Positions 14,593-59,360 of a stretch of 64,000 nt of DNA are shown in pieces. The notes below the pieces were generated by a model. It was not told the DNA's origin. It made no database searches and saw only the letters and a program-made list of their open reading frames with translations. Source of the DNA: Deltaproteobacteria bacterium (GTDB lineage Bacteria; UBA10199; GCA-002796325; JACPFF01). Within the stretch, counting starts at the first letter, position 1; each line of letters opens with the position of its first letter. The position numbers and the translations under genes are program-made. Location: positions 124,001-188,000 of the forward strand of contig JACPFF010000006.1 of assembly GCA_016183065.1 (NCBI GenBank), read 5' to 3'.

Positions 14593-14680
14593 CTATTGGA
14601 GGGGCTCGCGTCGCCCCCTCCAGCGGCAAAGCCGCTGGAGCCTCCCCCTCAACGCCGCGGTGCGGCTGGGTCGTGGGGCT
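14593..14680 (+). repeat. Mosaic palindromic repeat, copy A
   Basis: This copy reads (+) ctattggaggggctcgcgtc, then a perfect 10-bp hairpin (14618-14640, CTCCAGCGGC / GCCGCTGGAG around AAA), then a GC-rich tail ending gtcgtggggc. It is nearly identical to copies B and G. It lies inside an operon, between gcvPA and gcvPB, in antisense orientation to them. Confidence 0.93.
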
Positions 14681-14712
14681 CACCCTCTGGGGCACTGGTT
14701 GACCCATCATCG

Positions 14713-16068
14713 TCATCCTCTGATATGCCGCTCCACGGCGGCCACAAACCGGTCGATCTCCTCGCGGGTATTCTCTTCGGTGACGCAGACGAGCAAGGCA
14801 TTGGGGAGGTCATCGTACCAGCGGGAGAGCGCAATACCCCCGAATATCCGGTCTTCCTGCAATGCCGCAAGCAGTGATGCGGCCGGGCATGGCAGGGTGA
14901 TGACACACTCATGAAAGGTCGGTGCCGAAAACGTCGCGCGGACGCCGGCAAGACGTGTCAGTTCCTCGCGTGCGTACTCGGCCTTCTCCCAGTTGATCCG
15001 AGCCAGTCGGCGGAATCCCTCCTTGCCAAGCCACGCGGTGTAGATCGTTGTGGCCAAGGCGCAGAGTTGCTGGTTGGTGCAGAGGTTCGATGTCGCCCGC
15101 TCCCGCCGGATATGTTGTTCACGGGTGGTCAACGTTAACACAAAACTGCGACGCCCGAGGACGTCGCTCGTGACACCGGTCAGACGACCCGGCATCTGCC
15201 GGACATAGGCTGTGCGTGTCGCGAAGATGCCGACATAGGGGCCGCCATAGCTGGTCGGGTTCCCGAGGGCCTGGCCTTCGGCCACGACAATGTCGGCCCC
15301 CATGGTCCCCGGGGCCTCGATGAGGCCCATGGCAATGGGATCGGGCACAGCCACGATCAGGAGAGCCCCTGCGGCGTGCACGGCATCGGCGATCGGGCGC
15401 AGATCTTCTATTGTCCCGAAGAAACTCGGATATTGCACCACGCATGCGCTGCAGGTCGGTCTCAGTACACACTGTAACGCTGCCAGATCGACGGTCCCTG
15501 CGCGGGTGTATGGTACCAGTGTCGCCTGCGCTGCCGGATTGAGCCCGACGATCGTCCGGGTTACGGCCCGGATCTCCGGATGGACGTTCTGCATCACACA
15601 ATACTCCGAGCGCCGCGTGATCCGCTGTGCCATGAAGACCGCTTCCACGATGCCGGTCGACAGGTCGTAGGTGGACGCATTGGCGATATCGAGTCCAAAC
15701 AGCTCGCACATCATTGATTGATATTCGAAGATCGCTTGCAGTGTTCCCTGACTCAGTTCGGGTTGATACGGCGTATATGGAGTGAGGAATTCACCGCGTG
15801 ACACGAGTTGCCAGACCACGGCCGGGATGAAATGCCGATAACTTCCGCCCCCAAGAAAACTCGCCCATCTCTGTGGCGTGGCGTTCTGTTCCGCCAGTCC
15901 CTGCAGGGCGCGCCACAATTCGGGTTCGCTGCACGCCGGCGGCAGCGCCAACGGCCCTTTCAGCCGCAAGGCGTCGGGGATGCTCTGAAAGAGGGCGTCG
16001 ATCGAGGCGGCGCCGATCGTTCGCAACATGGCATCGATGTCGTCCGGCGTATGCGGGAGATAGCGCAT
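14713..16068 (-). CDS. gcvPA: Glycine dehydrogenase (decarboxylating) subunit 1
   Basis: This is the 451-aa other half of the P-protein, which with GcvPB decarboxylates glycine and loads aminomethyl onto GcvH lipoyl. Recognised stretches are FLGGGSYRHFIPAVV, TPYTPYQPELSQGTLQ, YDLSTGIVEAVFMAQR and GEGQALG-like VVAEGQALGNP. I chose ATG 16068, 10 nt after the gcvH stop; upstream in-frame codons lie inside gcvH. No strong Shine-Dalgarno is seen, so translation may be coupled to gcvH. Confidence 0.95.
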   Translation of the reverse strand: MRYLPHTPDDIDAMLRTIGAASIDALFQSIPDALRLKGPLALPPACSEPELWRALQGLAEQNATPQRWASFLGGGSYRHFIPAVVWQLVSRGEFLTPYTPYQPELSQGTLQAIFEYQSMMCELFGLDIANASTYDLSTGIVEAVFMAQRITRRSEYCVMQNVHPEIRAVTRTIVGLNPAAQATLVPYTRAGTVDLAALQCVLRPTCSACVVQYPSFFGTIEDLRPIADAVHAAGALLIVAVPDPIAMGLIEAPGTMGADIVVAEGQALGNPTSYGGPYVGIFATRTAYVRQMPGRLTGVTSDVLGRRSFVLTLTTREQHIRRERATSNLCTNQQLCALATTIYTAWLGKEGFRRLARINWEKAEYAREELTRLAGVRATFSAPTFHECVITLPCPAASLLAALQEDRIFGGIALSRWYDDLPNALLVCVTEENTREEIDRFVAAVERHIRG

Positions 16069-16078
16069 GCAGGAGGCC

Positions 16079-16468
16079 TTATCCGTGCTCGGCCGCAACA
16101 AAGGTCGCGTAGTCATCGGGAGACATGAGGTCCTCGAGCTCATCGATATTGGACATTTCAATGCGGACCATCCAGCCTTCCCCATAACAATCGGCATTGA
16201 CCTGCTCGGGCTGATCCTTCAAGGGGCTGTTCGCCGCGATGATCTCGCCGCTCACCGGGGCAAAGATGTCACTCACGGCCTTCACCGATTCCACCACCCC
16301 GAGCGATTCGCCCTTGGTGACGGTGTCGCCCTCGTCGGGGAGTTCCACAAAGACCACATCGCCCAACTGCGTCTGCGCATAATCGGTAATGCCGACCGTC
16401 ACGACATTGTCTTCCAAACGGATCCACTCATGTTCTTTGGTGAACTTGCATTCCTTGTCGATCTCCAT
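16079..16468 (-). CDS. gcvH: Glycine cleavage system H protein
   Basis: The 129-aa lipoyl carrier shuttles the aminomethyl group between P and T proteins. The lipoylation lysine is in ESVKAVSDIFAPVSG, and the family block EHEWIRLEDNVVTVGITDYA is at the N-terminus. Length is normal. It lies between gcvT and gcvPA with spacers of 7 and 10 bp. Confidence 0.97.
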   Translation of the reverse strand: MEIDKECKFTKEHEWIRLEDNVVTVGITDYAQTQLGDVVFVELPDEGDTVTKGESLGVVESVKAVSDIFAPVSGEIIAANSPLKDQPEQVNADCYGEGWMVRIEMSNIDELEDLMSPDDYATFVAAEHG

Positions 16469-16475
16469 AGGGCCC

Positions 16476-17561
16476 CTATTGTGTGTGGTAAAAGGGTAAT
16501 TGGACGACCTCTGCTAGGCGTTCGGTTCCACGAATGTCAACGGAAAATTTGGTATGCGGTTGCGCAATGTTTTTCGGAAGAAATCCCAGCCCAATGCCGA
16601 CCCGTAAAGAGGGGGACATCGTGCCGCTCGTGACATAGCCGACCGGTTTGTGATGCGTGATGAGCGGATATCCAGCGCGCGGAATCCCGGGATCGACCAT
16701 GGTGAACCCCACCAGCTGGCGTTCCCATCCCGCGGCCTTTTGCGCAGAGAGCGCGTCACGGCCGATGAAATCCCCCTTGTCGAGTTTCACGACCCAGCTG
16801 AGCCGCGTCTCCCAGGGGGTCGTCTTGATGGTGATTTCATGTCCATGCAATGGGTAGCCCATTTCCAGACGCAACGTGTCGCGCGCGCCCAGCCCGCACG
16901 GGATCAGGCCATGCGGCTTTCCGGCAGCGAGGAGGGTCCGCCAGATCAGCGCGGCATCCTTTGCCGGGATGAACATTTCATAGCCGGGTTCACCGGTATA
17001 TCCCGTGCGTGCGAGCAACATCGGAATGCCGTGCAGGTGTGTCGGCGCAATCCCGAATCGCCGGATGGTCCCCAGCGGCATCGTCGTGAGAGGCTGGAGA
17101 ATGGTATCGGCCTTTGGCCCCTGCAACGCGAGGAGGGCATACTCCTCACTCCGATTGACGAGCTGGGCATCCTCCCGCTGATGCGCCATCAACCAGTGCC
17201 AATCGGTCTCCGCGTTGCCGGCATTCACCACCAGCAGATACTGGTCGACGGCCAGGCAATAGACGATGATGTCATCGATGATGCCGCCATGCTCATTGAG
17301 GAGCAAGGAATACTGTGCGTCGCCGACGGCCAGCGACTCCACGTCATTCACCGTCATTTTCTGGAGAAAGGCCGTGGCGCCAGGACCGGCAATTTCAAAT
17401 TCACCCATGTGGCTGACATCGAAGAGACCGGCGGCGGTCCGGACGGTCGCATGTTCGACCAACGTCCCGGTTGGGTATTGCACCGGCATGGCCCAGTGGG
17501 CGAATTCCACGATGCGCGCATCGTGCTCCGTATGTTCATGGAACAAGGGGGTCTGTTTCAT
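16476..17561 (-). CDS. gcvT: Glycine cleavage system aminomethyltransferase (T protein)
   Basis: The 361-aa enzyme transfers the methylene group from GcvH to tetrahydrofolate, releasing ammonia. FDVSHMGEFEIAG, the catalytic-region MTVNDVESLAVGDAQYS and GLGARDTLRLEMGYPLHGHE are family motifs. The ATG overlaps the folD stop by 4 bp, and the product (5,10-methylene-THF) is the folD substrate, so coupling is metabolic as well as genetic. Confidence 0.97.
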   Translation of the reverse strand: MKQTPLFHEHTEHDARIVEFAHWAMPVQYPTGTLVEHATVRTAAGLFDVSHMGEFEIAGPGATAFLQKMTVNDVESLAVGDAQYSLLLNEHGGIIDDIIVYCLAVDQYLLVVNAGNAETDWHWLMAHQREDAQLVNRSEEYALLALQGPKADTILQPLTTMPLGTIRRFGIAPTHLHGIPMLLARTGYTGEPGYEMFIPAKDAALIWRTLLAAGKPHGLIPCGLGARDTLRLEMGYPLHGHEITIKTTPWETRLSWVVKLDKGDFIGRDALSAQKAAGWERQLVGFTMVDPGIPRAGYPLITHHKPVGYVTSGTMSPSLRVGIGLGFLPKNIAQPHTKFSVDIRGTERLAEVVQLPFYHTQ

Positions 17562-18403
17562 TGCAGGCGCTGCTTAGCAAGCATGACACAATTTTGCAAC
17601 ACCATGGCGATGGTCATGGGGCCGACGCCGCCGGGGACTGGTGTGATATGCCCGGCATGTGCTGCGGTCGCGCGGTCGACATCCCCGACGATCGTGCCGT
17701 CCGGCTGCCGATTGATCCCCACATCGATGACGATCGCGCCCGGTTTGATCCACGTGCCCTGCACGTATTGCGGTCGGCCAATGGCCGCCACCACAATATC
17801 AGCGGTGCGCACATGGTCCGCGAGAGCCCGGGTCTTGGAGTGGCACATGGTCACGGTGACATCGGCGTTAATCAACAGCTGGGCGATCGGTTTTCCCACA
17901 ATGGCGCTTCGGCCCACCACGGTGGCGGTGGCCCCCGGCAGCGGCACCCCGGTCGTTTCGAGGAGGGCCATGATCCCGAGCGGAGTACACGGACGGGGGC
18001 CGGGGAGGCCGAGCATGAGGCGCCCGACATTGACCGGATGAAAACCATCGACATCTTTGGAGGGATCGATTGCGGCAATCACCTGTTCCGTGCGGATCTG
18101 CGGTGGCAAGGGGAGTTGTACGAGGATGGCGTCGATGGCCTCGCGCTCGTTGAGTTGCGCAATGAGGGTTAACACCGCGCTCTCTGTAGCATCCGACGGG
18201 AGAAGGTGTTGTTCATGACGCACGCCGACCCGCTGGCAGGCGCGGGTTTTATTCCGCACGTAGAGCAGTGATGCGGGATTTTCGCCCACGAGAATGACCG
18301 CCAATGTCGGCGTGTGTCCTCCATGCGTCAATGCGGCAACGCTCGCGGAAAGTCGTGCACACTGTTGGTCCGCACAGGCGTTCCCGTCGATGAGGTGTGC
18401 CAT
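17558..18403 (-). CDS. folD: Methylenetetrahydrofolate dehydrogenase / methenyl-THF cyclohydrolase
   Basis: The 281-aa bifunctional enzyme converts methylene-THF to 10-formyl-THF, feeding purine synthesis. Visible motifs are the catalytic lysine in YVRNKTRACQ, QLPLPPQ, KDVDGFHPVNVG, VVGRSAIVGKP and the C-terminal PVPGGVGPMTIAMV. ATG 18403 gives the family N-terminus; upstream codons run into repeat copy B. It is the first gene of the folD-gcv operon. TATACT at 18424-18429 on the - strand could be its -10, but no convincing -35 is visible. I saw no glycine-riboswitch structure in the short leader. Confidence 0.96.
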   Translation of the reverse strand: MAHLIDGNACADQQCARLSASVAALTHGGHTPTLAVILVGENPASLLYVRNKTRACQRVGVRHEQHLLPSDATESAVLTLIAQLNEREAIDAILVQLPLPPQIRTEQVIAAIDPSKDVDGFHPVNVGRLMLGLPGPRPCTPLGIMALLETTGVPLPGATATVVGRSAIVGKPIAQLLINADVTVTMCHSKTRALADHVRTADIVVAAIGRPQYVQGTWIKPGAIVIDVGINRQPDGTIVGDVDRATAAHAGHITPVPGGVGPMTIAMVLQNCVMLAKQRLQ

Positions 18404-18428
18404 ACGTATATCGCGGCCTGTCAGTATA

Positions 18429-18517
18429 CTATTGGAGGGGCTCACGTCGCCCCCTCCAGCGGCAAAGCCGCTGGAGCCTCCCCTTCAACGCCGCGGTGCG
18501 GATGGGTCGTGGGGCCC
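18429..18517 (+). repeat. Mosaic palindromic repeat, copy B
   Basis: This copy starts ctattggaggggctcacgtc and has the same 10-bp hairpin as copy A (18454-18476), then the tail with cgccgcggtgcgg. It lies in the spacer between rpsI and folD, directly behind the folD start. Two further hairpins follow at 18515-18588 (listed separately). Confidence 0.93.
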
Positions 18518-18588
18518 CGGACGTTAGTCCGGGGTGTGTCGTGCTCCGGCGAAGCCTCCTCCCAGGGTGCCACGGGCGTGAGCCCGTG
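18515..18588. repeat. Two short perfect hairpins next to repeat copy B
   Basis: CCCCGGAC-GTTA-GTCCGGGG (18515-18534) and CACGGGC-GTGA-GCCCGTG (18571-18588) are perfect stem-loops. They are downstream of rpsI on its own strand, so they could help end or stabilise the rplM-rpsI transcript, although no T-run follows. They look like further modules of the mosaic repeat. Confidence 0.7.
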
Positions 18589-18608
18589 GGGCCCCACCAT
18601 CGGAGTGA

Positions 18609-19010
18609 CTATCGCTTGGAGTATTGGAAACTCTTGCGCGCCTTTTTATGGCCGTACTTTTTCCGCTCTTTGGCCCGCGGATCGCGCGTGAGATAGCCCG
18701 CGCCTTTGAGTCCCTTCCGGAATTCGGGATTCACCAAGAGGAGTGCCCGCGCAATACCGTGACGAATCGCCTCGGCCTGTCCCGATGGGCCACCACCAGA
18801 GACCTTCACGGCCGCATCAAATTGTTTTTCGGTCTGTGTCACCCCAAACGGCTGCTGAACGACAATGGGGAGCGTGGCCCGTCCAAAATATTCTTCCAGC
18901 GCCTTGTGATTGACGACAATCGCGCCGCTCCCTTTCCGGAGTCGCACGCGCGCAATGGCGGTCTTCCGTTTTCCTGTGGCAGCAAACTCTTCCTGTCCCT
19001 TCTGTGCCAT
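18609..19010 (-). CDS. rpsI: 30S ribosomal protein S9
   Basis: The 133-aa protein has the S9 core [13 protein letters not shown] and the C-terminal [12 protein letters not shown], whose final basic residues reach the P-site tRNA. I chose ATG 19010; longer in-frame starts lie in the spacer after rplM. It follows rplM by 28 bp, the usual L13-S9 operon. Confidence 0.97.
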
Positions 19011-19038
19011 ACGACGTGGTGTCCCTTCTTGCCGTTCG

Positions 19039-19473
19039 TTATACCGCGGCGATCGGTTGCTGCGCCTGATGCGGATGCTCTTGACCCGCATAGATCTTCA
19101 GTTTGGTGATCAAGAGATCCGAGAGCCGGTTCTTCGGCAGCATCCCTGCAACCGCCTTCCGCAAGATTCTCTCCGGATGCTTTGCCCGCATCTCTTTGGC
19201 CGAGATCCCCTTAATACCGCCTGGATATCCGGAATGGGACCAGTAGATCTTTTGGCGCCATTTGTCCCCGGTCAACGTGATCTTTTCCACGTTGATGGCG
19301 ATGACAAAATCGCCGGTGTCTTGATGCGGGGTAAAACTCGGCCGATGTTTCCCCCGGAGGATGTCCGCAATACGGGTGGCAAGCCGGCCCACGGGTTGAT
19401 CCGTGCAATCGACCAGGAGCCACTCCTTTTTCGTCGCCTTTTCGAGATTCATGGGAGTGCTTTTTGTCGCCAT
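19039..19473 (-). CDS. rplM: 50S ribosomal protein L13
   Basis: The 144-aa protein has the L13 blocks [31 protein letters not shown] and RMLPKN-like [11 protein letters not shown]. Several in-frame ATGs (19494, 19473, 19452) are possible and none has a clear ribosome site. ATG 19473 matches the usual length best. It is the first gene of rplM-rpsI; its promoter must lie in the 108-bp spacer to the divergent gene. Confidence 0.95.
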
Positions 19474-19581
19474 AGGGTGCTTGCGACTAGTCATGGAGAG
19501 CTGGAAAGTCAACGGAAAACAGGGGATTTGCGGATTCCACTTTTCGACCATAGGGGAGGTGTGATACTATTATACGCCATT

Positions 19582-20172
19582 ATGGGCCGTTCACCGAGGG
19601 AAGAAGTTGGGGAGAAAGACCGCGGAAGGCGCTCGTCGGGGTCGAATCCGTCCGCGCAGACGGATGAATCGGCACGTTCTGAGCCGTCTTTTCACTCTGT
19701 TGAAATCATCGATTTTTTTCGTGATGCGCACGGCAAAGAGACCCTTCTTGACGGGTGTCATCGCTTTCTCCGACGCTCTTTTCGGACGATTATCATTTTT
19801 GCGGTGACCCCCCAAGGACTCCGTTGGCTGGCCGGAGCAGGTCCCAACATGAAACCGCCCCAGAAGCGGGTCATTCCGTGGCGGCATAGCCCCCTGCTGC
19901 GGCGCGTGGCCCACCAACGACACCCCTACGTGGGACCGATCCCCGCAGATCCGGATGAGCGCGGCATCTTGATCCACCATCTCCATGCCCGTCCGGAGCG
20001 GTGTTGGCTCTATCCCGCCGCAGTCGGGGAACAGGTCGATTGTCTCATCTATGCAGATACCCCTCTCTTTGCGCCCGATCTCGCCGCTCGGCATCTCGAT
20101 TTTGTGACACGCCGCATGATCTTGGCCCTTCGGCGTTCCCTGATCGAGCGATTACTCCTGACGTCCCGGTAG
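19582..20172 (+). CDS. Uncharacterised protein with a possible GAF-like domain
   Basis: The 196-aa protein has a polar N-terminal third (about 1-45) and then a compact domain running from LDGCHRFLRRSFRTIIIFAV to the end. The order of elements (strand FRTIIIFAVTPQGLRWLAG, a loop with SPLLRRVAHQRHPYVGPIP, strand ERCWLYPAAVGEQVDCLIYAD, C-terminal helix) resembles the GAF-like sensory domains common in deltaproteobacterial regulators. I recognise this only by pattern. It is divergent from rplM and convergent with nifS. No catalytic motif is visible. Confidence 0.6.
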   Translation: MGRSPREEVGEKDRGRRSSGSNPSAQTDESARSEPSFHSVEIIDFFRDAHGKETLLDGCHRFLRRSFRTIIIFAVTPQGLRWLAGAGPNMKPPQKRVIPWRHSPLLRRVAHQRHPYVGPIPADPDERGILIHHLHARPERCWLYPAAVGEQVDCLIYADTPLFAPDLAARHLDFVTRRMILALRRSLIERLLLTSR

Positions 20173-20204
20173 CAGGCCATTGTGATCGCCCTCCGACGAC
20201 GTCT

Positions 20205-21365
20205 CTACGAACGCCGCGGTGGGGCGAGTCGGCGGCGTGTGGCGACGATGGCGGGGAGTTGTTCGAGGAGCGCATCGATGTCGGAATTCGTGGTGTAGCG
20301 ACTGATGCTCAAACGGAGCGTCCCGCGGATCTCGGCGTTGGAGAACCCCATGGCCCGCAGGACATGCGAGGGCTCGATCGAACCGGCGGCACAGGCCGAG
20401 CCGGTCGATGCGGCAATGCCTCCCTCACTGAGGGCCAGGATCATCCCTTCCCCATCGACGCCTTCCATCCGGACACTCGTCGTATTGGCCACGCGCAGCG
20501 TCCGGTGCCCGTTGATCGCCATGTCGGGGATCCGTGTCAGCAGGGCATGCTCCATCCGATCGCGCAGCGCACGGACCGCGGTGTCTACGGTCGACAGATG
20601 CGTCCGCGCCAGTGTGGCCGCCACGCCCAGGCCGACGATCTGCGCAACGTTCTCCGTCCCCGCGCGCCGACCCTGTTCCTGCCCGCCGCCCCGAAACATC
20701 GGTCGGAAGGGCGTCCCCGGTCGGAGGTAGAGGGCACCGACTCCCTTTGGTGCATGGAACTTGTGCCCAGAAAGGGAGAGGGCCGCAATCGGGTGGCGAC
20801 ATAAGTCAATCGAAACTTTCCCAATGGCCTGGACTGCGTCGCAGTGGAACGGAACTCCCCGCTCTTCACAGATGGCCGCGATCTGCTCGATGGGGAAGAG
20901 GACCCCGGTCTCATTGTTGGCCCACATCAGTGACACACAGGCGGTCTCCGGCGTGCAGACGTCCGCGACCTGCTGCGGATCGAGCGTCCCGTCGGCAGCG
21001 ACCGGGAGGCGGGTGATCGTGTAGCCTTGCTCTTCGAGGAGGGCGCAATAATTGCGGACCGCCGCGTGTTCGACCGTGCTGGTGACCAGATGCCGTTTCG
21101 TCGGTTGGGCGGCACAGAGTCCGAAGAGGGCGAGGTTATCGGCCTCGGTCCCGGAACTCGTAAAGATCACGCTACTCGCTCGTGGGGCGCCGATCAACGT
21201 GGCCACGGCCTGACGGGCCGCATCGAGATCGGTCGCGACTTCGCGCCCAAACTGGTGCAGGCTGGAGGGATTTCCCCAGCGTGTGGCATAGGAGGGTTGC
21301 ATGGCCTCGACGACTTCCGGCGCGGGCTGTGTGGTGGCATTGTTGTCGAAATAGTGGAGGGGCAT
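20205..21365 (-). CDS. nifS: Cysteine desulfurase (NifS/IscS family)
   Basis: The 386-aa PLP enzyme strips sulfur from cysteine for Fe-S clusters and thio-modifications. Motifs are YFDNNATTQPAPEVVEAM, the PLP lysine in SLSGHKFHAPKGVGALY and the active-site cysteine in STGSACAAGSIEPSHVLRAMG. The short loop around that cysteine places it in the NifS/IscS class rather than SufS. No scaffold gene (iscU/nifU) is adjacent, so its partner is elsewhere. Confidence 0.93.
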   Translation of the reverse strand: MPLHYFDNNATTQPAPEVVEAMQPSYATRWGNPSSLHQFGREVATDLDAARQAVATLIGAPRASSVIFTSSGTEADNLALFGLCAAQPTKRHLVTSTVEHAAVRNYCALLEEQGYTITRLPVAADGTLDPQQVADVCTPETACVSLMWANNETGVLFPIEQIAAICEERGVPFHCDAVQAIGKVSIDLCRHPIAALSLSGHKFHAPKGVGALYLRPGTPFRPMFRGGGQEQGRRAGTENVAQIVGLGVAATLARTHLSTVDTAVRALRDRMEHALLTRIPDMAINGHRTLRVANTTSVRMEGVDGEGMILALSEGGIAASTGSACAAGSIEPSHVLRAMGFSNAEIRGTLRLSISRYTTNSDIDALLEQLPAIVATRRRLAPPRRS

Positions 21366-21517
21366 CTTTCGGTGGTCATAATGAATGTGCCCGGAGACGG
21401 AAAGGGGGAAATGCCCCCATCTCTTCCCCCGAGCTCCCCGAGCGGCTTGACATCTGGTCGGAATTTGTTATCCCGACACGCCCTGAAGCAGACGGATTGT
21501 GAAGGGGAGGAGGCTGT

Positions 21518-21733
21518 ATGGCACGAGTGACTGTCGAAGACTGTTTGGAAGAGGCCGATAACCGCTTTGTCTTGGTCCATTTGGCCGCCAAGCGCGCCAA
21601 GGAATTGCTCAAGGGGGCACCGGCGGTACATCGGTGCAAGAATCGCGAGGTCGTCACCGCGTTGCGCGAAATTGCCGATCTCAAGGTCCACCCCGTCATC
21701 CCAGACACAGTCGCGCCAGACGCCAAACAGTAG
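21518..21733 (+). CDS. rpoZ: RNA polymerase omega subunit
   Basis: The 71-aa protein matches omega: [20 protein letters not shown], then the helix [11 protein letters not shown] and REIADLKV. Omega helps assemble RNA polymerase and binds ppGpp in proteobacteria. GGGGAGGAGG lies just before the ATG. It ends only 8 bp before a tRNA-Leu gene, so the two are probably cotranscribed. Confidence 0.93.
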
Positions 21734-21741
21734 GCTGGTTT

Positions 21742-21825
21742 GCCGGGATGGCGGAACTGGCAGACGCGCCAGACTCAAAATCTGGTGGAGGCAACTCCGT
21801 GGGGGTTCGACCCCCCCTCCCGGCA
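21742..21825 (+). tRNA. tRNA-Leu (anticodon CAA)
   Basis: An 84-nt class II tRNA. The acceptor stem GCCGGGA pairs with TCCCGGC, followed by discriminator A. The anticodon arm is CCAGA-CTCAAAA-TCTGG, giving CAA, which reads UUG leucine codons. There is a long variable arm (GGAGGCAACTCC) and a T arm GGGGG-TTCGACC-CCCCC. The 3' CCA is not encoded. Confidence 0.97.
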
Positions 21826-21872
21826 CAACAGGCGGTCCTGCAGGCCTGTCTGTTCGAATTGTACATTACATG

Positions 21873-22142
21873 TTAGCCGTTCTTCCGGCGCGGTTTTTTC
21901 CAGGTGGTATATTTGCCGGAAGAGATCTCTTTTTCGGTCCTGCGCAGCTTGGCCAAAATTTCGGGCTCCGTTTCCAAAATGTCGAGTGTCTCGAGGAGCG
22001 CCTCATATTCCTCAAACGGGAGCAAAGCGCTCACCGGTTCTCCATCTTTGAGAATGATGAACGATTCGCCAAGTTCCTGATTGCGACGTGCCAACTCAAG
22101 AAACTTTTGCTTTGCCTTTGTGATCGGTAATAATTGGGCCAT
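21873..22142 (-). CDS. Phd/YefM-like antitoxin
   Basis: The 89-aa protein has a Phd/YefM-like N-terminal DNA-binding part (LLPITKAKQKFLELARR, FIILKDGEPVSALLPFEEYEALLETL) and a charged C-terminal tail that would wrap the toxin. It starts 5 bp after the toxin stop. It should neutralise the RelE-like toxin and repress the shared promoter. Confidence 0.85.
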   Translation of the reverse strand: MAQLLPITKAKQKFLELARRNQELGESFIILKDGEPVSALLPFEEYEALLETLDILETEPEILAKLRRTEKEISSGKYTTWKKPRRKNG

Positions 22143-22147
22143 AGTGG

Positions 22148-22411: not shown

Positions 22412-22419
22412 CTATGGAC

Positions 22420-22448
22420 ATTATAATGGACTTATATAATGCTGTCAA
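22420..22448 (-). promoter_or_regulatory. Consensus sigma70 promoter and operator of the toxin-antitoxin pair
   Basis: On the - strand TTGACA (22448-22443) and TATAAT (22425-22420) are both perfect and exactly 17 bp apart. The -10 is flanked by direct repeats (GTCCAT-TATAAT-GTCCAT) and lies within the palindrome CATTATAATG, likely the binding site of the antitoxin or complex. Confidence 0.9.
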
Positions 22449-25212: not shown

Positions 25213-25215
25213 TGA

Positions 25216-25485
25216 CTATTGGAGGGGCTCACGTCGCCCCCCCAACGGGCAAAGCCCGTTGGGTCCCCCCCTCTCGCGCGCGGTGCGCGCTGGGGAACGG
25301 CTCCCACGGGGCTCACGGTCCCCGGACTCGGTCGTCGCCACTGCCCCCCCAACGGGCAAAGCCGGGTCAAGGCCCAGCTTTGCTGGGCCGCGAAGCAGAG
25401 TCGAAGACTTTGCGGAGTGTAATAGGTCCCCCCCCCTCTCGCGCGCGGTGCGGCTGGGTGGTAGGGCCCCACGTCCCAGGGACTG
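25216..25485 (+). repeat. Mosaic palindromic repeat, copy C (long composite form)
   Basis: This 270-bp copy starts with the family head ctattggaggggctcacgtc, then the second hairpin type (CCCAACGGGC-AAA-GCCCGTTGGG, 25241-25263). It continues with a GCGCGC-rich tail, the module ccggactcggtcgtcgcca, a second partial unit, and another hairpin (GGCCCAGC-TTT-GCTGGGCC, 25371-25389). It then has gtcgaagactttgcggagtg and a third tail. Parts recur in copies D, E and F. It separates comF from the convergent Rieske gene. Confidence 0.9.
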
Positions 25486-29298: not shown

Positions 29299-29817
29299 CA
29301 CAACCTCCTCCATAGGCTCACGTGCCCCATGGCGTCATAAAAATCAGCAAATCCTATGCCAAGAGAAACAGACGCCGGATCGACACGTTATACGAACTCA
29401 ATGGCCAGGCATGGGATATACGGACGCCAATGGCGGGAACTCAGGACCTCAGCCGGGATGTGGTGTGTCCACATAGGGAATGCAGGACTATCGAGCTATC
29501 GGGCGAACTATCGGGGACGTTTCTCCCCATCTCAAGGAACTACAATCACTATGGTTTCTGATGGTGCTGACGATTTTCATCTGTTGCAAACCCGGTCGCA
29601 TGGGGCAAGCAGATCGAGGAGTGCATGGGGGGAGAACCGTCTTCGAGAACACTCGGCAACTTTTTTGCCACTTTTGCCCATCTCCTTGCTAAGAGCCTCC
29701 CGTGATCGATTTCCTTGCACTGAAACCGTTGGCGGGAGGGGTGAGCCTCTTGTCGGAGTGTTTGCGATCGCCGCCACTGTCCCCCAACGGGCACCGCTGG
29801 TGGGGCCCCAAAATCCG
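29299..29817. other. Spacer with no convincing gene
   Basis: Open frames here are short, mutually overlapping and without family resemblance or ribosome sites. Codon use does not look like that of neighbours. A fragment of the mosaic repeat lies near its right end (29769-29811). Divergent or run-through promoter elements for the secreted protein at 29298 should be here, but I cannot pick them. Confidence 0.6.
29769..29811 (+). repeat. Fragment of the mosaic palindromic repeat (copy H)
   Basis: The stretch cgccgccactgtcccccaac and the following gggcaccgctggtggggcc match the junction module of copy C (cgccactg...ccccaacgggcaaagccg) with small changes. The hairpin is incomplete. It lies just after the 3' end of the unknown gene at 29818. 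Confidence 0.6.
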
Positions 29818-32159: not shown

Positions 32160-33087
32160 TATGGTACCGTAAGACGCATGTGCTCAGGAAAAGTTAACGC
32201 ACCATAAAGCCCCTGAAAGCGCTTTCCGTGGACCTCACCGCTCGTCAGTGTCCGACGGATGGTGTAAAGTGTTTGCCTCACGCAACTTCTGCCGTTGTCT
32301 GCCGACAAGGTGTGGGAGAGAAACCATGCACGGAAAACGACCAGACGCCCATCACCGCATACGACATTGCGTTTGCGCGCCACGCAACCGCTCCCGGTGC
32401 TCATACGACAGATGGCCCCGGTGACAACCTCTGCGGGACGCTATTCACTCGCTGTAGAGCGCGTTGCCCGCGCTGGTGTTGGGGTAGCAATGCCCCGAAA
32501 GTCCACCGACGCCGGTGCAAGATCTGGGAAATGATGAATGCGAAAGCCGCGGCGCGGTCGACGAATCTCACCGAGCACCTCTGGGGACGCTCCACGAAAG
32601 ACGATCCGCAAATCAGGGATCATATCATGTCCCGTCCCCGATCGGGACAACACATCAACCACGGCCAATTCGCCTTGCGCGCCTTGCCGCATCTCTCGGA
32701 GACAATCGCATCGAAGACATGGGACTGCCCGGTCCGCCACGCGCGGCGCAACACTTCTTCGGACACGGTCCTACGTGGGGTATCGATACCCCAACCACAT
32801 TTGATGACTATTCGCGCCTTCCAAAGGGGGCGAGCAAGCCGCACCCCCCGCCCGGACTCGGTCGTCGCCACCCCCCTCCAGCGGCAAAGCCGGGTCAAGG
32901 ACCAGTTGTGCTGGGCCGCGAAGCACAGTCGAAGACTTTGAGGAGTGTAATAGAACCTCCCCCTTGAGCGCCTCGGTGCGGCTGGGGCGTGCGGGCCCTG
33001 GATGACGCGGGGTTTACAACTAGGATATCACACTGTCGTGGCGTTTGCCTCGCGACATGTAGTTGCGAGTGTCCCGCTTTTTCTCGA
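32160..33087. other. About 0.9 kb without a recognisable gene
   Basis: Frames on both strands are up to 230 codons but overlap each other, carry no recognisable motif and have no ribosome sites. The segment ends with repeat copy E (32850-33000). It could be a decayed gene or mobile element; I cannot identify it. Confidence 0.55.
32850..33000 (+). repeat. Mosaic palindromic repeat, copy E
   Basis: This copy lacks the ctattggagg head. It starts at the module cccggactcggtcgtcgcca and continues with the first arm of the CTCCAGCGGC hairpin. Then come gccgggtcaagg, an imperfect GGACCAG...CTGGGCC hairpin, gtcgaagactttgaggagtg and the tail with cggtgcggctgggg. The order matches the inner part of copy C. 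Confidence 0.85.
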
Positions 33088-39877: not shown

Positions 39878-40021
39878 CGGGGGACGTGGGCCCCACGTCC
39901 CAGCCGCACCGCGGCGTTGAGGGCGACGACCGAGTCCGGGCACCCAGCGCGCCCCGCGCGCGAGAGGGGGGGACCCAACGGGCTTTGCCCGTTGGGGGGG
40001 CGACGTGAGCCCCTCCAATAG
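39878..40021 (-). repeat. Mosaic palindromic repeat, copy D (inverted)
   Basis: Read on the - strand it starts ctattggaggggctcacgtc and has the second hairpin type (39974-39996, CCCAACGGGC / GCCCGTTGGG). It then has a GCGCGC-rich tail, the ccggactcggtcgtcgcc module and the cgccgcggtgcggctggg tail. It lies between recG and the next gene in the only copy with inverted orientation. Confidence 0.93.
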
Positions 40022-48864: not shown

Positions 48865-48876
48865 GGCCCGCCACCA

Positions 48877-49004
48877 TTACAGGGGCTCACGTACCCTCCG
48901 GCTCCGCCTGCGGGTACTTCCTCGTCCACCCGCTTCGCGGGTCCCCGGACTCGGTCGTCGCCACGTCCCTCAACGCCGCGGTGCGGCTGGGTCGTGGGGC
49001 CTCA
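48877..49004 (+). repeat. Mosaic palindromic repeat, copy F (divergent hairpins)
   Basis: It starts ttacaggggctcacgtaccc, replacing the usual hairpin with two others: GTACCC...GGGTAC (48891-48916) and ACCCGC-TTC-GCGGGT (48928-48942). It then carries the common modules ccggactcggtcgtcgccac and cgccgcggtgcggctgggtc. It lies between frr and uppS within a + strand gene run. Confidence 0.85.
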
Positions 49005-53193: not shown

Positions 53194-53209
53194 GGCATCG
53201 CCGGATGCT

Positions 53210-53238
53210 TTGCACTTTCGTGAGAAAATCCCTATAAT
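53210..53238 (+). promoter_or_regulatory. Near-consensus promoter of the ChaN-like gene
   Basis: TTGCAC (53210-53215) and perfect TATAAT (53233-53238) are 17 bp apart. The ATG at 53245 is 6 nt after the -10, so transcription should start at the start codon. Confidence 0.8.
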
Positions 53239-53244
53239 GATGTC

Positions 53245-54861
53245 ATGGTTCTTTCTCCGCGCGAGGAACTCGTCCGGCTGCAGAAGAAAATCTATCGGGC
53301 CAATCGTGCCATCATTGAACAATCGGTTGTGGTGCAAGAACCGGATTTCGACAACTATGCGCGGCGCTACCGTCATGCCGTGGCGCATTTCCAGCGGGCA
53401 GTGTCTCACGAAACGATGCTCAAGGCCGTGCAGCGGGCCGATATTGTCTATGTCGGTGACTATCACACCTGTCCGCAATCGCAGCGATCATTTCTCCGCA
53501 TCCTGAAGGCCATCCGTCCGCGCCAGTCGCGGCCGCTCCTGCTCGGTCTCGAACTCTTTCATCGCCGGCATCAGCCCACCGTCGATGCCTTCCTGGCCGG
53601 TTCGCTCTCCGAACAGTCGTTTTTGCAGACCGTGGGATTGCGGCAGCATTGGGTGTTTGATCTCTGGGACCACTTTCGCCCCATTTTTGATTTTGCCAGA
53701 TATCATCGCATTCCCATTCTTGGCATCGATGCGGCCGCCCGCAAGGCCTCCCTGATGGAACGCGATCAACAAACCGGTGCGTGGATCGCGACGCTCGCAG
53801 AGCGCTATCCTGCCCACCAGCTCTTCATCCTGATTGGGGACCTCCATCTCGCCCCCCAGCATCTTCCCCTGGAAACCGAGAAGGTCTTGAAGGCGCGGCA
53901 TCTCGAACGGGCCGATCTCATCCTCTATCAAAACAGCGAGCCGATCTACTGGTCACTGGCCCGCCGCGGGCGCGAGCAGCGTGTGGGAGTCGTCCAGATC
54001 GATCGCCGGACCTATTGTCGCATGCATACGCCACCCATCATCTGTCAGCAGTCCTACCTCAATTGGCTCGATCATGAGGAGGGAGCGATCGATTATGCGG
54101 ATGCCAAGGAGCAATTTTTGCATCTCGTGCAGCAGATGGCCCATTTTCTCCGGATTCCCCTGGGACAGGAGATGGAGAATATTACCGTCTACACCTGCGG
54201 AGATCTCAGTTTCCTCCATGAACTGAGACGACGCAGGCGTTTTTCGCCTCGAGAGCTCAAAACGATCCGGCGCCACGTTCTTGCCGCGGAAAGTTATTGT
54301 CTTCCGCAGGAGCGGATGGTCTATCTGGCGAATCTGTCGGTCAATCATGCCGCGGAGGAAGCGAGCCATTATCTCAAATTTCTCTGCTCAGGCCCGGAAC
54401 ATCCACGTCCCCTGATCGATGCGTTTTACGCAAACCTGTTGCATGAGGCGCTCGGGTTTTTTGGATCGAAATTGATCAATCATCATCGGAAATGTTTTCA
54501 CGACGCCGATTTTTTCCGGCGCCTGGCCTATTTTCGGCGACACGGCATTCCACCGGGGCGCGAGGGAGAATTCGAGACCGCGCAGCTCGTGGTGACCTAT
54601 CGTCGGTACGAGCGACGGGGAAAACCGCTCCAGTATAAGGCGATCTTTCAGCAATCTGCCGACCGGTTTTTTTCCGTGACCCATGCCCTCGGATACATGC
54701 TCGGCGACCGCATGTTTTATGGTGTCATGGGTCGAAAAATCCCGCGGGCCCTTGTTCGGAGGCTCTTCACGGAACAGTGGTGGTTCGAGGGACAGGCCTT
54801 CGAGTGGGTCGCAGACCTCCAGGAGCGCCTCCGCACCGTCTCCATTCCCGCCCGCATGTGA
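53245..54861 (+). CDS. ChaN-like (DUF399/Tiki-fold) protein
   Basis: The 538-aa protein contains a ChaN-type domain (about 60-260): DIVYVGDYHTCPQSQRSFL, then LLGLELFHRRHQPTVD and LFILIGDLHLAPQHLP, with histidines that bind heme or metal in this family. The second half (about 290-538) is an unknown helical domain rich in His, Arg and Phe (FRRHGIPPGREGEF). There is no signal peptide, although ChaN proteins are usually lipoproteins, so this one may be cytoplasmic. No Shine-Dalgarno is seen. Confidence 0.8.
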   Translation: MVLSPREELVRLQKKIYRANRAIIEQSVVVQEPDFDNYARRYRHAVAHFQRAVSHETMLKAVQRADIVYVGDYHTCPQSQRSFLRILKAIRPRQSRPLLLGLELFHRRHQPTVDAFLAGSLSEQSFLQTVGLRQHWVFDLWDHFRPIFDFARYHRIPILGIDAAARKASLMERDQQTGAWIATLAERYPAHQLFILIGDLHLAPQHLPLETEKVLKARHLERADLILYQNSEPIYWSLARRGREQRVGVVQIDRRTYCRMHTPPIICQQSYLNWLDHEEGAIDYADAKEQFLHLVQQMAHFLRIPLGQEMENITVYTCGDLSFLHELRRRRRFSPRELKTIRRHVLAAESYCLPQERMVYLANLSVNHAAEEASHYLKFLCSGPEHPRPLIDAFYANLLHEALGFFGSKLINHHRKCFHDADFFRRLAYFRRHGIPPGREGEFETAQLVVTYRRYERRGKPLQYKAIFQQSADRFFSVTHALGYMLGDRMFYGVMGRKIPRALVRRLFTEQWWFEGQAFEWVADLQERLRTVSIPARM

Positions 54862-54867
54862 TGCGAT

Positions 54868-56184
54868 TTACGCCTGATAGTAATCAATGCCGAGATGGGT
54901 AATCTGGGTCTCGCCCATCATCCAGCGCAGCGTATTCATCAATTTCATCTCTTGATGAAAGAGATTGTGCTCCGGATAGAGTCCCTCTTTGACCATGGGA
55001 GATTTGAGATAGAAGGAGAGCCACTCCTGGATCCCCTTCAGGCCGGCCCGCTTTGCCAGATCGAGAAAGAGTGCGAGGTCGAGCACGATCGGTGCCGCCA
55101 GGATGCTGTCACGGCAGAGGAAGTCGATCTTGATCTGCATGGCGTATCCGAGCCAGCCGAAGATGTCGATGTTGTCCCATCCCTCTTTATTGTCCCCACG
55201 GGGGGGATAATAATTGATGCAGACTTTGTGATAGAGGTCACTGTAGAGCTCCGGATTCAGTTCCGGTTGCAAAATAGTCCCGAGCACCGAGAGCTTGCTC
55301 ACTTCCTTGGTTTTGAACGACTGGGGATCGTCCAAGACCTCGCCATCGCGGTTCCCGAGAATGTTGGTCGAGTACCATCCGCGGATGCCCAGGTGCCGCG
55401 CACGCAGTCCCGGGGCCAAGATCGTCTTCATCAGGGTCTGTCCGGTTTTGAAGTCCTTCCCCGCAATCGGTGCGTGGGTCTGGTTCGCGAGCTCCTGCAT
55501 GGCCGGGATGTCGACGGTCAGATTTGGGGCCCCATTGGCGTACGGGATGCCTCGTGTGAGGGCGGCGTAGGCATAGAGAATGCTCGGGGCGATGGCCTGC
55601 TCATCGTGGTCGAGGGCCTTCTCCAAGGCGGCCAGCGAGGCGTGATGCGGACCGGATTGGGTAAAGACCTCGGTGCTCCCGCACCAAATCATGACCGCAC
55701 GGCTGGCCCCGGTTTTTTTCAGGAACGCATCGATGTCATTCCCGATTTGCTCCGCCAATGCCCGGCGCGTCCCGCGTTTGCAGTGGGTCCCATGCAATTT
55801 TTGCACAAACTTTTGATCGAACGCCGCAGTCCACGGCTGGATTGCCTCGAGTTTTGACCGGAGTTTCTCGATGAGGGTCGGTTCCAGCACGCCGGCCTTG
55901 AGCGCCGCCTCGTAGGCATTATCCGGGACACAGTCCCAACTGCCAAACACCAAGTCATCGAGTGATGCGAGCGGGACAAATTCCTTGATCAGGGGGACTT
56001 TCATCTCGGTCCGTTTCCCGAGTCGCACGCGTCCCATCTGGGTTAGCGAGCCGATGGGACGTCCGAGTCCCTGAAGAATGGCCTCAATGCCGGCAATGAA
56101 TGTCGTGCTGACGGCCCCAAGGCCGGGAAGGAGGATGGCGAGTTTGCCGGAAGCCGGTGCAATGGAGGGTGGTGCTTGTGTCAT
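54868..56184 (-). CDS. ino1: Inositol-3-phosphate synthase
   Basis: The 438-aa NAD-dependent enzyme converts glucose 6-phosphate to myo-inositol 3-phosphate. The nucleotide region AILLPGLGAVSTTFIAGIEA, the block GKDFKTGQT (active-site lysine), RGWYSTNILGNRDGEVL and CINYYPPRGDNKEGWDNID are clear. ATG 56184 follows a GTGAG-type site. Inositol derivatives serve as lipid heads or compatible solutes; no further inositol gene is in the window. Confidence 0.93.
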   Translation of the reverse strand: MTQAPPSIAPASGKLAILLPGLGAVSTTFIAGIEAILQGLGRPIGSLTQMGRVRLGKRTEMKVPLIKEFVPLASLDDLVFGSWDCVPDNAYEAALKAGVLEPTLIEKLRSKLEAIQPWTAAFDQKFVQKLHGTHCKRGTRRALAEQIGNDIDAFLKKTGASRAVMIWCGSTEVFTQSGPHHASLAALEKALDHDEQAIAPSILYAYAALTRGIPYANGAPNLTVDIPAMQELANQTHAPIAGKDFKTGQTLMKTILAPGLRARHLGIRGWYSTNILGNRDGEVLDDPQSFKTKEVSKLSVLGTILQPELNPELYSDLYHKVCINYYPPRGDNKEGWDNIDIFGWLGYAMQIKIDFLCRDSILAAPIVLDLALFLDLAKRAGLKGIQEWLSFYLKSPMVKEGLYPEHNLFHQEMKLMNTLRWMMGETQITHLGIDYYQA

Positions 56185-56336
56185 CACAGTGCTCACTTTC
56201 AACTGCGGTCTGGATGCCGGTCGATTGATCTGGAAACCTTTGAAATTCCTAACAGTTCCGCCGCAGCTAACATACGATTTTTTTTTGCGCAACTTTTTTG
56301 TCGCAGGGGCGATAGTCTCAATGGTAGGAGTGACGA

Positions 56337-56696
56337 ATGATTATTCGATGGCTGAACACCGTACTTTTCGGGCAACGCCGACCAGAGATATCTGAAAAAC
56401 CTATTGATTCCAATAAGATTGGAAGTCATGAGGCACGTGGTCTCTTGGATGTCATCCATGAGGCGATCAAGTCAGAGGCTGTGGAACTCTCGCAATTGTT
56501 GCGCGTGGGACGACCCTCCGCCCAAAAACGACGCCGAGATGAACGGATTCGGAAAAAAGTGAAACACGCCATTGATCCGCAATTCGATGACGACACGCTG
56601 GTCGAGGAGATCACGGCAAAGATTTCCGATGCGACCGATGTCGATCCCTATTATCAGCATCTCTTCAACAGTCATGAAAAATCAGATCGGGCGTAG
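56337..56696 (+). CDS. Small uncharacterised protein
   Basis: The 119-aa protein is highly charged, with a basic middle (KRRRDERIRKKVKHAID) and an acidic C-terminal part (DDDTLVEEITAKISDATD). GGAG lies 8 nt before the ATG, and codon use is less GC-rich than its neighbours. No family is recognised. It is convergent with the ATP-grasp pair and divergent from ino1. Confidence 0.55.
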   Translation: MIIRWLNTVLFGQRRPEISEKPIDSNKIGSHEARGLLDVIHEAIKSEAVELSQLLRVGRPSAQKRRRDERIRKKVKHAIDPQFDDDTLVEEITAKISDATDVDPYYQHLFNSHEKSDRA

Positions 56697-56735
56697 GTCA
56701 GGCCTTCTTGCATGCTCCATGGGTGGTGGAGCCTG

Positions 56736-57917
56736 TCACGGGACAATCCCCACCGGGCGGGTCCTGTGCGGCATGACGCAGTATCGCGGTCGCTGCCCGT
56801 CATAGGAGTCACCGAGGAGGAGTGCGGAACTGAGCGTTTGCCCGGATTGCGGGCCGACAACAATGTTGTTCGGCAGGTGGAGATATGTGGAGTCATCGAC
56901 ACGGCATGTCCCATGCGGCGGGAGTCGTTGGGCAATGACTTCCCGCCGTTCCGACACCGTGGTCCGACAGGTCGGATCGAGCTCTCCGACCGCCCATTCA
57001 TAGGCCAGATCGAGGCCGGTTGCCATATGCATGGCGGCCAGGGTCGGCCCGGAGCCAAAGCGGGCACTGATTTCCACGAAATAGAGTTTTCCCGACGGTG
57101 TGCACAGATATTCCGCGTGGGTCACTGGCGGGAATGCGAGGTGCTGCAAGAGGAGGCGATGCCGGGTGAGGAGCGTCTGTTCGATCGGTCGCAAGTGATG
57201 TTGTCGCGACAACATCCCGCGCACTTCATAGTGGTGATTGATCATGCCATACTGGTATTCAAAGAGCATATCACAGACGATTGCATTTTTCTGCACGAGG
57301 GTATCGATGCTATATTTTGTGCCACGGATGAAGGCCTCAGCGCGGTATTTGGTGCGGTGTTCGCCGAGGAAATGCCATTGATGCGCGAGCTGTGCCGGCG
57401 TGGAAAGGATGACGCTGGGACGGAGAGGGTCCCATCGGTGCGGCTTCACAATGATCTTGCCATGCGTGGTGAGCAGGTCGCGCACCCCCGCGAATTGGTC
57501 CAGCAAAACCGTCTCCGGCAGATGACATCCGGGCAACCCCAACTGACGGATCATGGCATACATCCGTTCGCGATCCCGATAACCGATGACCTGGTTGGGA
57601 CGCAGGCCCGGAATGTTCAGCTCCTCGCGGAAATAGGCCGCCGCCAACGTCAAGGTATCATCGAAGGTGAAGATGCGATGGATCTGGTAGCGTTCGTTGA
57701 TCTGCTGGAAATGTGCGAACATCGCGGCATGGTTCTGCACCGCACCGACCGCCACGACGTCATCGGCAATCCCGGGACTCACGGACGTTGACCCCGCCGC
57801 CATGAGAACGGCTGCCAGATGGTAACGGTGGGCGGCCACCGTGAGCGCGCGCAAAGGGGCCTCAATGGAGGCATCGGTCGGGCGGTGGAGGATGAGGACC
57901 GCTGGAGTGCGGCTCAT
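56736..57917 (-). CDS. ATP-grasp ligase B
   Basis: The 393-aa protein has an N-terminal alpha/beta part (VLILHRPTDASIEAPLRAL), a central ATP-grasp pair (KIIVKPHRWDPLRPS, AEAFIRGTKYSIDTLV) and the C-terminal metal motif YFVEISARFGSGPT. It would make an acyl-phosphate from a carboxylate and join it to an amine or thiol. Start ATG overlaps the previous gene by 4 bp. It is a diverged paralogue of ligase A; the substrate is unknown. Confidence 0.8.
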   Translation of the reverse strand: MSRTPAVLILHRPTDASIEAPLRALTVAAHRYHLAAVLMAAGSTSVSPGIADDVVAVGAVQNHAAMFAHFQQINERYQIHRIFTFDDTLTLAAAYFREELNIPGLRPNQVIGYRDRERMYAMIRQLGLPGCHLPETVLLDQFAGVRDLLTTHGKIIVKPHRWDPLRPSVILSTPAQLAHQWHFLGEHRTKYRAEAFIRGTKYSIDTLVQKNAIVCDMLFEYQYGMINHHYEVRGMLSRQHHLRPIEQTLLTRHRLLLQHLAFPPVTHAEYLCTPSGKLYFVEISARFGSGPTLAAMHMATGLDLAYEWAVGELDPTCRTTVSERREVIAQRLPPHGTCRVDDSTYLHLPNNIVVGPQSGQTLSSALLLGDSYDGQRPRYCVMPHRTRPVGIVP

Positions 57918-59239
57918 GCGGCTTTCCGGGCTGAGGTTCTGCAGGGGGCCATGGTTACGGAAAAGCTTTGTTGGAGTCCGGCGAAGTCGTCAAGGATTTT
58001 CTTGCGATTTCGGCCTTCGACGAGGGCAAAACCGAGGCCTTCCACGCTGTGCGCCGGGCTGGCGATTTCGTCACCGGCGCATGTCCAGAGGGCCACATGA
58101 CGCGTTGTGCCATGGATCAGGGCCGTGGGATCGGTCATTGCCGTGATCGTGCCGCGCTGCGGCGTGCTGAGCACCAGTGCGCCGACTTCCAATGATGTCC
58201 GCTGTTGCGGCAATCTCGGGATATAGGACGGATCGAGTTGCATCCGGAACCATCCCTCCATCGGGTCGAGTCCGGTGAGTGCGGTGAGCATAGACCGAAT
58301 CGGGCCACCCCCGACACGGGCTCCAACCTCGCCAAAGACGAGCCGGCCACCGACCTCGAAGAATTCGGCATGGGCCGCACCATCCGTGAGCCCAAGGATG
58401 GAGAGGATCTCCTCATTGGCCTGTCGCAACTGCGCACACACCGGATCGGTATCGTGATGCCGGCTGATGGTCCCCGGAGACTCGGTCTGCGCGCGGAATC
58501 CCAGGACGTTGTAGGTATATTGTGAGGGGACGGCGAAGACCGACGTGCCTCCGTGGCGCAAGGTATCCACGTGAAACTGATGGGTCCGTGTGTCAAGAAA
58601 TTCTTCTACACGATAGCTGCGGGGATGTCGGGCAATGGTATCCCAGACCGCACCGATCGCTCCATCGTTGATCGGATAGACCTCGCGACAGCCGCTCCCC
58701 ACGCGCAGTTTGACCACGGCCCGTCCATGGTGGGCATCCACAAAGGCCTGCAGGGTCTGTCGTGAATGAATGCTGTCGAGGGCCTCCGGGAGGACAAAAT
58801 GTTTCGGAGAGGCCCGGCGGAGCGTGGCGTGCATATCCGATTTGTCGCGAAATCGCCTCGCCGTACGCAGAGTAATGCCCGGCACATCGAAATATGCGCG
58901 TGCCCGGGCTGCGGGGATCAAATGACGCTCATAGCTGGCGACGATGGCGACCGGCGGGGTTGTTGGCAGATGCTTGTGCAGGGCCCTGATGACGTCGTGT
59001 CCCGAGGCGAGATCCGCCTCCACAACCGTGACGTTCGGTGCATCAAGGTGGGTCGCGTGGCCGGCGGGAGGTGTCAAAATCAGCGGATGGAGTCGCCGGG
59101 CCCGTGCCACCTCCAAAAAGGTCTGGACGGCGGCGTCACCAAAATATCCACGGTCCTGATGAAAATAGACCGCCGTTCTTCCGTTGGGTCGCGGTCCGAT
59201 CCGATTGTGAGAAATGGGGCTTCGTATGCCGTGTGTCAT
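57914..59239 (-). CDS. ATP-grasp ligase A
   Basis: The 441-aa protein has an N-terminal Rossmann-like part (TAVYFHQDRGYFGDAAVQTF), ATP-binding stretch RAVVKLRVGSGCREVYPIND and VEEFLDTRTHQFHVDTL, and HAEFFEVGGRLVFGEVGARVGG as the metal-binding end. The layout resembles L-amino-acid ligases and carnosine-synthase-like enzymes. It is followed immediately by ligase B, which suggests sequential peptide or amide bond formation. The start has no strong ribosome site, and repeat copy G lies upstream. Confidence 0.82.
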   Translation of the reverse strand: MTHGIRSPISHNRIGPRPNGRTAVYFHQDRGYFGDAAVQTFLEVARARRLHPLILTPPAGHATHLDAPNVTVVEADLASGHDVIRALHKHLPTTPPVAIVASYERHLIPAARARAYFDVPGITLRTARRFRDKSDMHATLRRASPKHFVLPEALDSIHSRQTLQAFVDAHHGRAVVKLRVGSGCREVYPINDGAIGAVWDTIARHPRSYRVEEFLDTRTHQFHVDTLRHGGTSVFAVPSQYTYNVLGFRAQTESPGTISRHHDTDPVCAQLRQANEEILSILGLTDGAAHAEFFEVGGRLVFGEVGARVGGGPIRSMLTALTGLDPMEGWFRMQLDPSYIPRLPQQRTSLEVGALVLSTPQRGTITAMTDPTALIHGTTRHVALWTCAGDEIASPAHSVEGLGFALVEGRNRKKILDDFAGLQQSFSVTMAPCRTSARKAA

Positions 59240-59273
59240 GTACTCTCTCCATGGTGCAAAACTGTTTCGTCAA

Positions 59274-59360
59274 CTATTGTAGGGGCTCACGTCGCCCCCT
59301 CCAGCGGCAAAGCCGCTGGAGCCTCCCCCTCAACGCCGCGGTGCGGCTGGGTCGTGTGGC
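59274..59360 (+). repeat. Mosaic palindromic repeat, copy G
   Basis: It starts ctattgtaggggctcacgtc, has the CTCCAGCGGC/GCCGCTGGAG hairpin (59299-59321) and ends cgccgcggtgcggctgggtc. It matches copies A and B almost base for base and lies upstream of the ATP-grasp pair. Confidence 0.93.

Follow-up and report, generated by a model that had tools for sequence, protein, structure and literature searches.

The palindromic repeats that recur along the 64,000-nucleotide stretch of DNA analysed here (the window, located on contig C15 of the 1.97-Mb genome G000, which comprises 30 contigs) are very probably copies of a non-autonomous mobile element that multiplies within genomes, sometimes reaches unrelated lineages, and inserts both between and inside genes. 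In the best reading of the data, they represent a new, protein-coding family of palindromic mobile elements that has a wide host range and is mobilised in trans. The original prediction had described a mosaic repeat family in the window, and missed both its in-frame insertions into genes and its spread over several phyla.

The core of the element is ~79 nt long and is predicted to form three hairpins, with the order 5' (C)TATTRYAGGGGCTYRCGTCGCCCCCTCC, hairpin 1 (hp1), GGAGCCTCCCCCTCA and hairpin 2 (hp2). An alignment of 28 copies, nearly all of them from different genomes or loci of the host's class, gives the core consensus CTATTRTAGGGGCTCGCGTCGCCCCCTCC-ACCGGCAAAGCCGGT-GGAGCCTCCCCCTCA-CGCCGCTTTGCGGCTGG. 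Analysis of this alignment with RNAalifold reveals an invariant head hairpin, GGGGC(TCGCGTC)GCCCC, and seven covarying pairs in hp1 and hp2 at which pairing is kept through two-sided changes. The 5' edge of the element is sharp, with conservation beginning at a C located seven bases ahead of AGGGG. Optional extra hairpins yield longer forms of roughly 110-200 bp, and some copies have an enlarged hp1. Four copies from Nitrospirae JACRHA (L085, L073, L145 and L065) carry a lineage-specific segment of ~90 nt within hp1 (AAGCGAGCATCCGGCTTGGCCGGTGCAAGC...), and window copies C and E carry a different enlarged segment at the same position. The long JACRHA form (L085, L073 and L145) was considered as a candidate autonomous element and rejected, as it merely has a longer hp1 segment that is followed by ordinary genes. 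Tandem duplications of the element also occur. The one in Syntrophorhabdus (L133) includes 67 bp of flanking DNA, and the one in Syntrophorhabdaceae (L149) precedes an ABC transporter ORF, with which it is in frame.

Within the window, a motif search bore out the positions that had been predicted for the head, the central hairpin and the tail modules, as well as the combination of these modules into mosaics. The proposal that all eight segments form one family holds for copies A, B, C, D and G, which share the ~79-nt core, while E, F and H are relatives of it in headless, variant or fragmentary form. The head of copy F is of a second type, GGGGCTCACGTACCC, which occurs in 22 distinct contexts among the retrieved stretches of this genome, and the tail module occurs in 43; the DNA examined for these counts comprises the stretches around copies. 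Copy B matches other copies in the genome with 91-97% identity over up to 113 bp. On the evidence of ORFs and Pfam matches, the claim that copies always lie between genes looks true for the window, but it is wrong for the genome as a whole, where some copies reside in frame inside genes. Elsewhere in the window, an ORF of 995 residues (4276-7263) contains seven DUF4215 repeats.

Table 1. Copies of the repeat in the window. The head motif was found with 0-1 mismatch and the CCGGACTCGGTCGTCGCCA module exactly, unless noted; E values are from covariance model R1.
Copy	Position	Strand	Composition	Head motif	CCGGACTCGGTCGTCGCCA module	CGCCGCGGTGCGGCTGGG module	Evidence	Gene context
A	14593..14680	+	complete core: head hairpin, hp1, hp2	14593		14653	R1 E 1.1e-21	between gcvPA (ends 14713) and gcvPB, both - strand (Pfam)
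B	18429..18597 (end approximate)	+	core and long tail with hairpins GGCCCCGGACGTTAGTCCGGGG and CCACGGGCGTGAGCCCGTGG, tail read from sequence	18429		18489	R1 E 3.4e-20	upstream of folD (- strand)
C	25216..25485	+	core, then second mosaic unit with CCGGACTCGGTCGTCGCCA module and enlarged hp1	25216	25322	25441 (3 mismatches)	R1 E 2.1e-14	starts 3 nt past stop of phosphoribosyltransferase-like gene; Rieske gene convergent (Pfam)
H (fragment)	29769..29811	+	hp1-like hairpin alone; membership doubtful				sequence; no R1 report	
E	32850..33000	+	headless mosaic: tail module, hp1 (enlarged loop segment terminating in GTGTAATAG), then hp2		32852	32969	exact module matches; no R1 report	
D	39878..40021	-	core, CCGGACTCGGTCGTCGCC module and second hp2	40002-40021	39921 (1 mismatch)	39899	R1 E 2.1e-14 (39942-40021); motifs	
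F	48874..49004	+	second head type (AGGGGCTCACGTACCC...), tail module, hp2	48874 (4 mismatches)	48945	48974	motifs; no R1 report	between frr (stop 48864) and uppS (start 49031) (Pfam RRF, Prenyltransf)
G	59274..59360	+	complete core	59274		59334	R1 E 7.1e-22	

The same covariance model, applied to the whole genome, recovered the five core-bearing window copies with E values from 7e-22 to 2e-14 among at least 112 copies in 1.97 Mb, a count for which not every first-look candidate was scored. The core is present in 23 of the 46 genomes of the same class, with copy numbers that range from one weak copy to 71 (G024), besides the 101-112 copies of the window's genome. Large numbers are also encountered elsewhere, up to 125, 71, 54 and 46 copies in MAGs of Nitrospirae, Syntrophorhabdus and Syntrophus, of which 125 belong to one Nitrospirae MAG, 54 to Syntrophorhabdus and 46 to Syntrophus. 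An exact 22-nt core pattern matches more than 105 stretches in GTDB genomes whose record titles name Nitrospirae, Nitrospiria, Troglogloeales, Syntrophus, Syntrophorhabdus, Deltaproteobacteria and Bdellovibrionales; several of the records labelled Deltaproteobacteria or Nitrospira we take to be genomes of the host's own class. A further match lies in a 5-kb contig titled Acidobacteria, for which a binning error is possible. The nearest neighbour of a copy resides in the same genome in 69% of cases, versus 16% when labels are shuffled, which argues for amplification within genomes. Exchange between lineages now and then is the likely source of the common core. A search for vehicles gave no match among 2.9 million viral contigs (IMG/VR), 72,556 plasmids and 50,697 phage records.

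Perhaps the most consequential copies are those that interrupt proteins. We scanned 161 copies for reading frames that run through the element and followed this with NCBIfam and Pfam scans. A codon-usage test on 107 copies of the window's genome places 11 of them (about 1 in 10) in frame, and many in-frame copies exist in other genomes too. In the interrupted conserved proteins, family models match on both sides of the insert, although the second side is partial for RimP and CinA. The proteins with in-frame inserts include TypA/BipA in G031 (881.7 bits), MurF in the window's genome (with the model on both sides), Mfd and crotonyl-CoA reductase in G033, PBP1A and RimP in G019, PriA in G024, ArsS in G021, hydrogenase-4 subunit F in G010, and a fused MFS/spermidine synthase in Nitrospirae. 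The window's genome adds RlmN, HpnD, AcpS, NrdJ and an alpha/beta hydrolase. The affected core functions include cell-wall synthesis, ribosome maintenance and DNA replication. CinA has been struck independently, at different places, in G000 and G019 (L003 and L213). The B12-dependent ribonucleotide reductase NrdJ (G000 contig C3) contains an intein and two elements (L177 and L303), one of which lies in the C-terminal linker and the other within the intein.

These inserts of ~25-60 residues are probably translated, judging from their open frames and the intact domains on their flanks. They derive from both orientations and several frames of the element, giving peptides such as REGEAPxALPxEGATRAP, GAHVAPSSGKAAGASPS, RGSRRPLQRQS, GGGSGGFADGGGDASP and GLASPPP. 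Because several frames and both orientations are used, the conserved entity is the nucleic acid and not the peptide. We found no sign of selection for open frames in the element, whose six frames are no more open, and whose stops are no more depleted, than composition predicts. Survival inside genes therefore reflects GC-richness and selection.

We infer that the element moves from comparisons of MAGs. For three copies of G019, located in cinA, rimP and pbp1A, the orthologous site is empty in the congener G007. The cinA site reads GGT-KEK-PVGT in G007 versus GGT-(27 residues)-RPVGT in G019, and the rimP site reads PI-DG-RH versus PI-(27 residues)-RH. Both insertions keep the frame and replace two host codons. 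Three intergenic copies likewise differ in presence between related Nitrospirae MAGs (L120/L097, L097/L120 and L063/L095).

The proposal that the repeats form a REP- or MITE-like mobile hairpin family is upheld by their copy number, empty orthologous sites, covarying hairpins and mosaic units, but neither a link to RAYT transposases nor the usual form of a MITE is supported. A role for the host might be suspected instead, in which a structured RNA or transcription-end signal is kept at gene ends for host benefit, with occasional stray copies. The covarying hairpins, the strongly conserved core and the many copies that lie directly behind stop codons would fit such a role. Nevertheless, half of the class does without the element, congeners differ in its abundance (seven copies in G019 versus one weak copy in G007), copies occur in either orientation and in frame inside coding genes, and no Rfam family matches, so we regard this explanation as highly improbable. 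It is unlikely that the repeats form a REP/REPIN family whose movement depends on a RAYT or another transposase of the IS200 type (Y1 HUH) able to recognise the hairpin together with the four bases preceding it. The repeats are hairpin-rich, high in copy number and mostly intergenic, Y1 genes are present in many carriers, and the four bases ahead of the head hairpin are often GTAG, ATAG, ACAG or GGAG. This tag, often of the form RYAG, varies, however. In the window's genome (n = 74) GGAG, a known REP tag, precedes 40 copies and ACAG 21. Among 154 copies from other genomes, the counts are 54 for ATAG, 24 for GTAG, another known REP tag (PMC3116915, PMC3733652), and 18 for ACAG. Moreover, Y1 transposases (PF01797) are equally frequent with and without the element (in the class, 19 of the 23 carriers and the same number of the 23 non-carriers), and none was detected in four carriers. 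Neither of the two Y1 genes in the window's genome has copies on both sides: the first is separated from the nearest copy by ~1.1 kb that contain another ORF, and the second is the remnant of an IS200-type TnpA (L189:3285-3704, G000 contig C8), truncated beside a mosaic cluster of elements near parA. Clustering of ORFs over 8-kb loci gave apparently ordinary, mostly distant families and no recurrent neighbour gene, and neither an enzyme nor an autonomous copy was found among the loci examined. An HUH enzyme acting in trans is possible.

The size, the copy number, and the mosaic and nested copies would fit a classic MITE, derived from a DDE insertion sequence and marked by terminal inverted repeats and a target duplication of fixed length. 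The murF copy of the window's genome, flanked by an 11-13 bp direct repeat, is the single clear case in its favour. Against it, terminal inverted repeats were not seen when sequences were read by eye, no parent insertion sequence was found, and no target duplication is visible at the cinA, rimP and pbp1A sites of G019 when compared with G007. Flanking repeats of at least 9 nt accompany 15 of 206 copies versus 3.1 expected, and the majority of copies are without any. We consider a MITE of this kind very unlikely. A first search had hinted at long target-site duplications, which were rejected because the repeats proved to be gene and tRNA ends, present at few copies and recoded at three. These three cases, rplL (L082) and mraZ (L125) in G019 and a ferritin-like gene in G001 (L040), have the element between two copies of the gene end, comprising the last 14-20 codons including the stop, that differ synonymously at 21 codons and non-synonymously at one. 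In all three, an open frame of the element continues in phase with the displaced gene end, with one internal stop in the ferritin-like frame. Repeated tRNA ends surround L103, L131 and L036, and an 18-bp gene end including the stop is repeated around L022. In these arrangements, the left repeat stops at the 5' boundary of the element or only a few bases away from it. The pattern at the three genes suggests either an earlier in-frame insertion whose native end was restored from a diverged homologue, or a homology-anchored import. As a general explanation, such import would have the element recombine at a conserved gene together with the neighbouring gene or tRNA end, with no dedicated enzyme. 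The recoded codons and the repeated tRNA and gene ends speak for it, but the pattern occurs in about 7 of the roughly 140-150 copies examined, and it does not explain the over 100 copies scattered through a single genome. Import as the general route is decidedly unlikely.

No known family had been recognised in the original prediction, and our literature search found no description of the present repeat and no described family that covers it. The closest known kinds are the Rickettsia palindromic elements (RPEs), which are not known to have a transposase, and the CGTC-tagged REPs. RPEs and their Wolbachia counterparts (Ogata and colleagues 2000, 2002 and 2005, cited in PMC10969869 and PMC3733652) are likewise small palindromic repeats that occupy intergenic sites and also interrupt unrelated housekeeping genes in frame, but they are known from Rickettsiales only, whereas the present family spans several phyla. 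The present repeat also has a different, GC-rich sequence with several hairpins, its likeness to RPEs in sequence having been tested via family models only; the insert peptides gave no meaningful match to Pfam or to NCBIfam models, those for RPEs included. CGTC-tagged REPs (Di Nocera 2013, PMC3733652) are palindromic, extend over several phyla, have no dedicated transposase, and reside mostly downstream of genes with some intragenic, all of which is shared with the present family. The published definition describes a single stem of 8-9 bp that has AT pairs at its base and a loop of 4-5, with CGTC at the terminus and a tail of CCA (PMC3733652). In contrast, our alignment and consensus structure place CGTC in a loop closed by a GC stem of 5 bp, with a 3-nt AAA loop in hp1 and at least three hairpins, and membership was rejected because stem, loop, tag and tail all depart from that definition. 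Scattered through G007, G019 and G024 are GGTCCATGGTCCATAG tracts and a CGTC-type REP (CGTCACCCCGGCGGAAGCCGGGGTCCAG) distinct from the present family.

Two other groups deserve comparison. GTAG REPs and REPINs with their RAYTs (PMC3116915, PMC3733652) are also high-copy hairpin repeats with mosaic clusters, but the present family has no RAYT association, a variable RYAG-like tag in place of a fixed GTAG, and a far longer unit. PARCEL (Roske 2010, PMC2996958) is similarly a palindromic coding repeat with a patchy distribution among distant microbes, but it forms tandem arrays of 25 residues in ORFs without assigned function that are often membrane-targeted, whereas the present repeat usually occurs singly and in diverse enzymes. 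Since the repeat departs from the definition of CGTC-tagged REPs, and matches RPEs in behaviour but not in host range, we assign it to the protein-coding palindromic kind of element as a member of neither family.

In our preferred reading of a mobile palindromic element, copies would multiply inside a genome and now and then cross to unrelated lineages. An enzyme acting in trans may recognise the conserved hairpin stretch on single-stranded DNA. Copies would land between genes, just behind stops, or within genes, and most would be selfish or neutral. An insertion into an essential gene would survive if it is of a length that preserves the frame and brings no stop into it, adding a translated insert of ~25-60 residues. 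A bolder version of this reading is unlikely, namely that one near-invariant palindrome circulates among phyla without visible plasmid or phage carriers, increases in number within each host, and time and again adds new translated segments to essential proteins, while some copies move together with the 3' end of a neighbouring gene and replace it by homology-anchored import. If true, such replacement of gene ends would add a new mode of movement for small repeats.

For twenty years, 'selfish' palindromes that insert in frame have been a curiosity of Rickettsia and Wolbachia, alongside REPs found inside genes of scattered species. As late as 2024, a review called similar protein evolution in other prokaryotes 'conceivable' (PMC10969869). 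The present family extends in-frame palindromes, in large numbers, to several phyla of groundwater and sediment bacteria, and the empty alleles are available in a congeneric genome. There is also a warning for annotation, in that insert peptides such as REGEAPAALPVEGATRAP should be read as repeat-derived and not as domains. With this family, two old questions become testable, namely by what means such elements move when no transposase is in sight, and how frequently new protein segments originate from mobile DNA.
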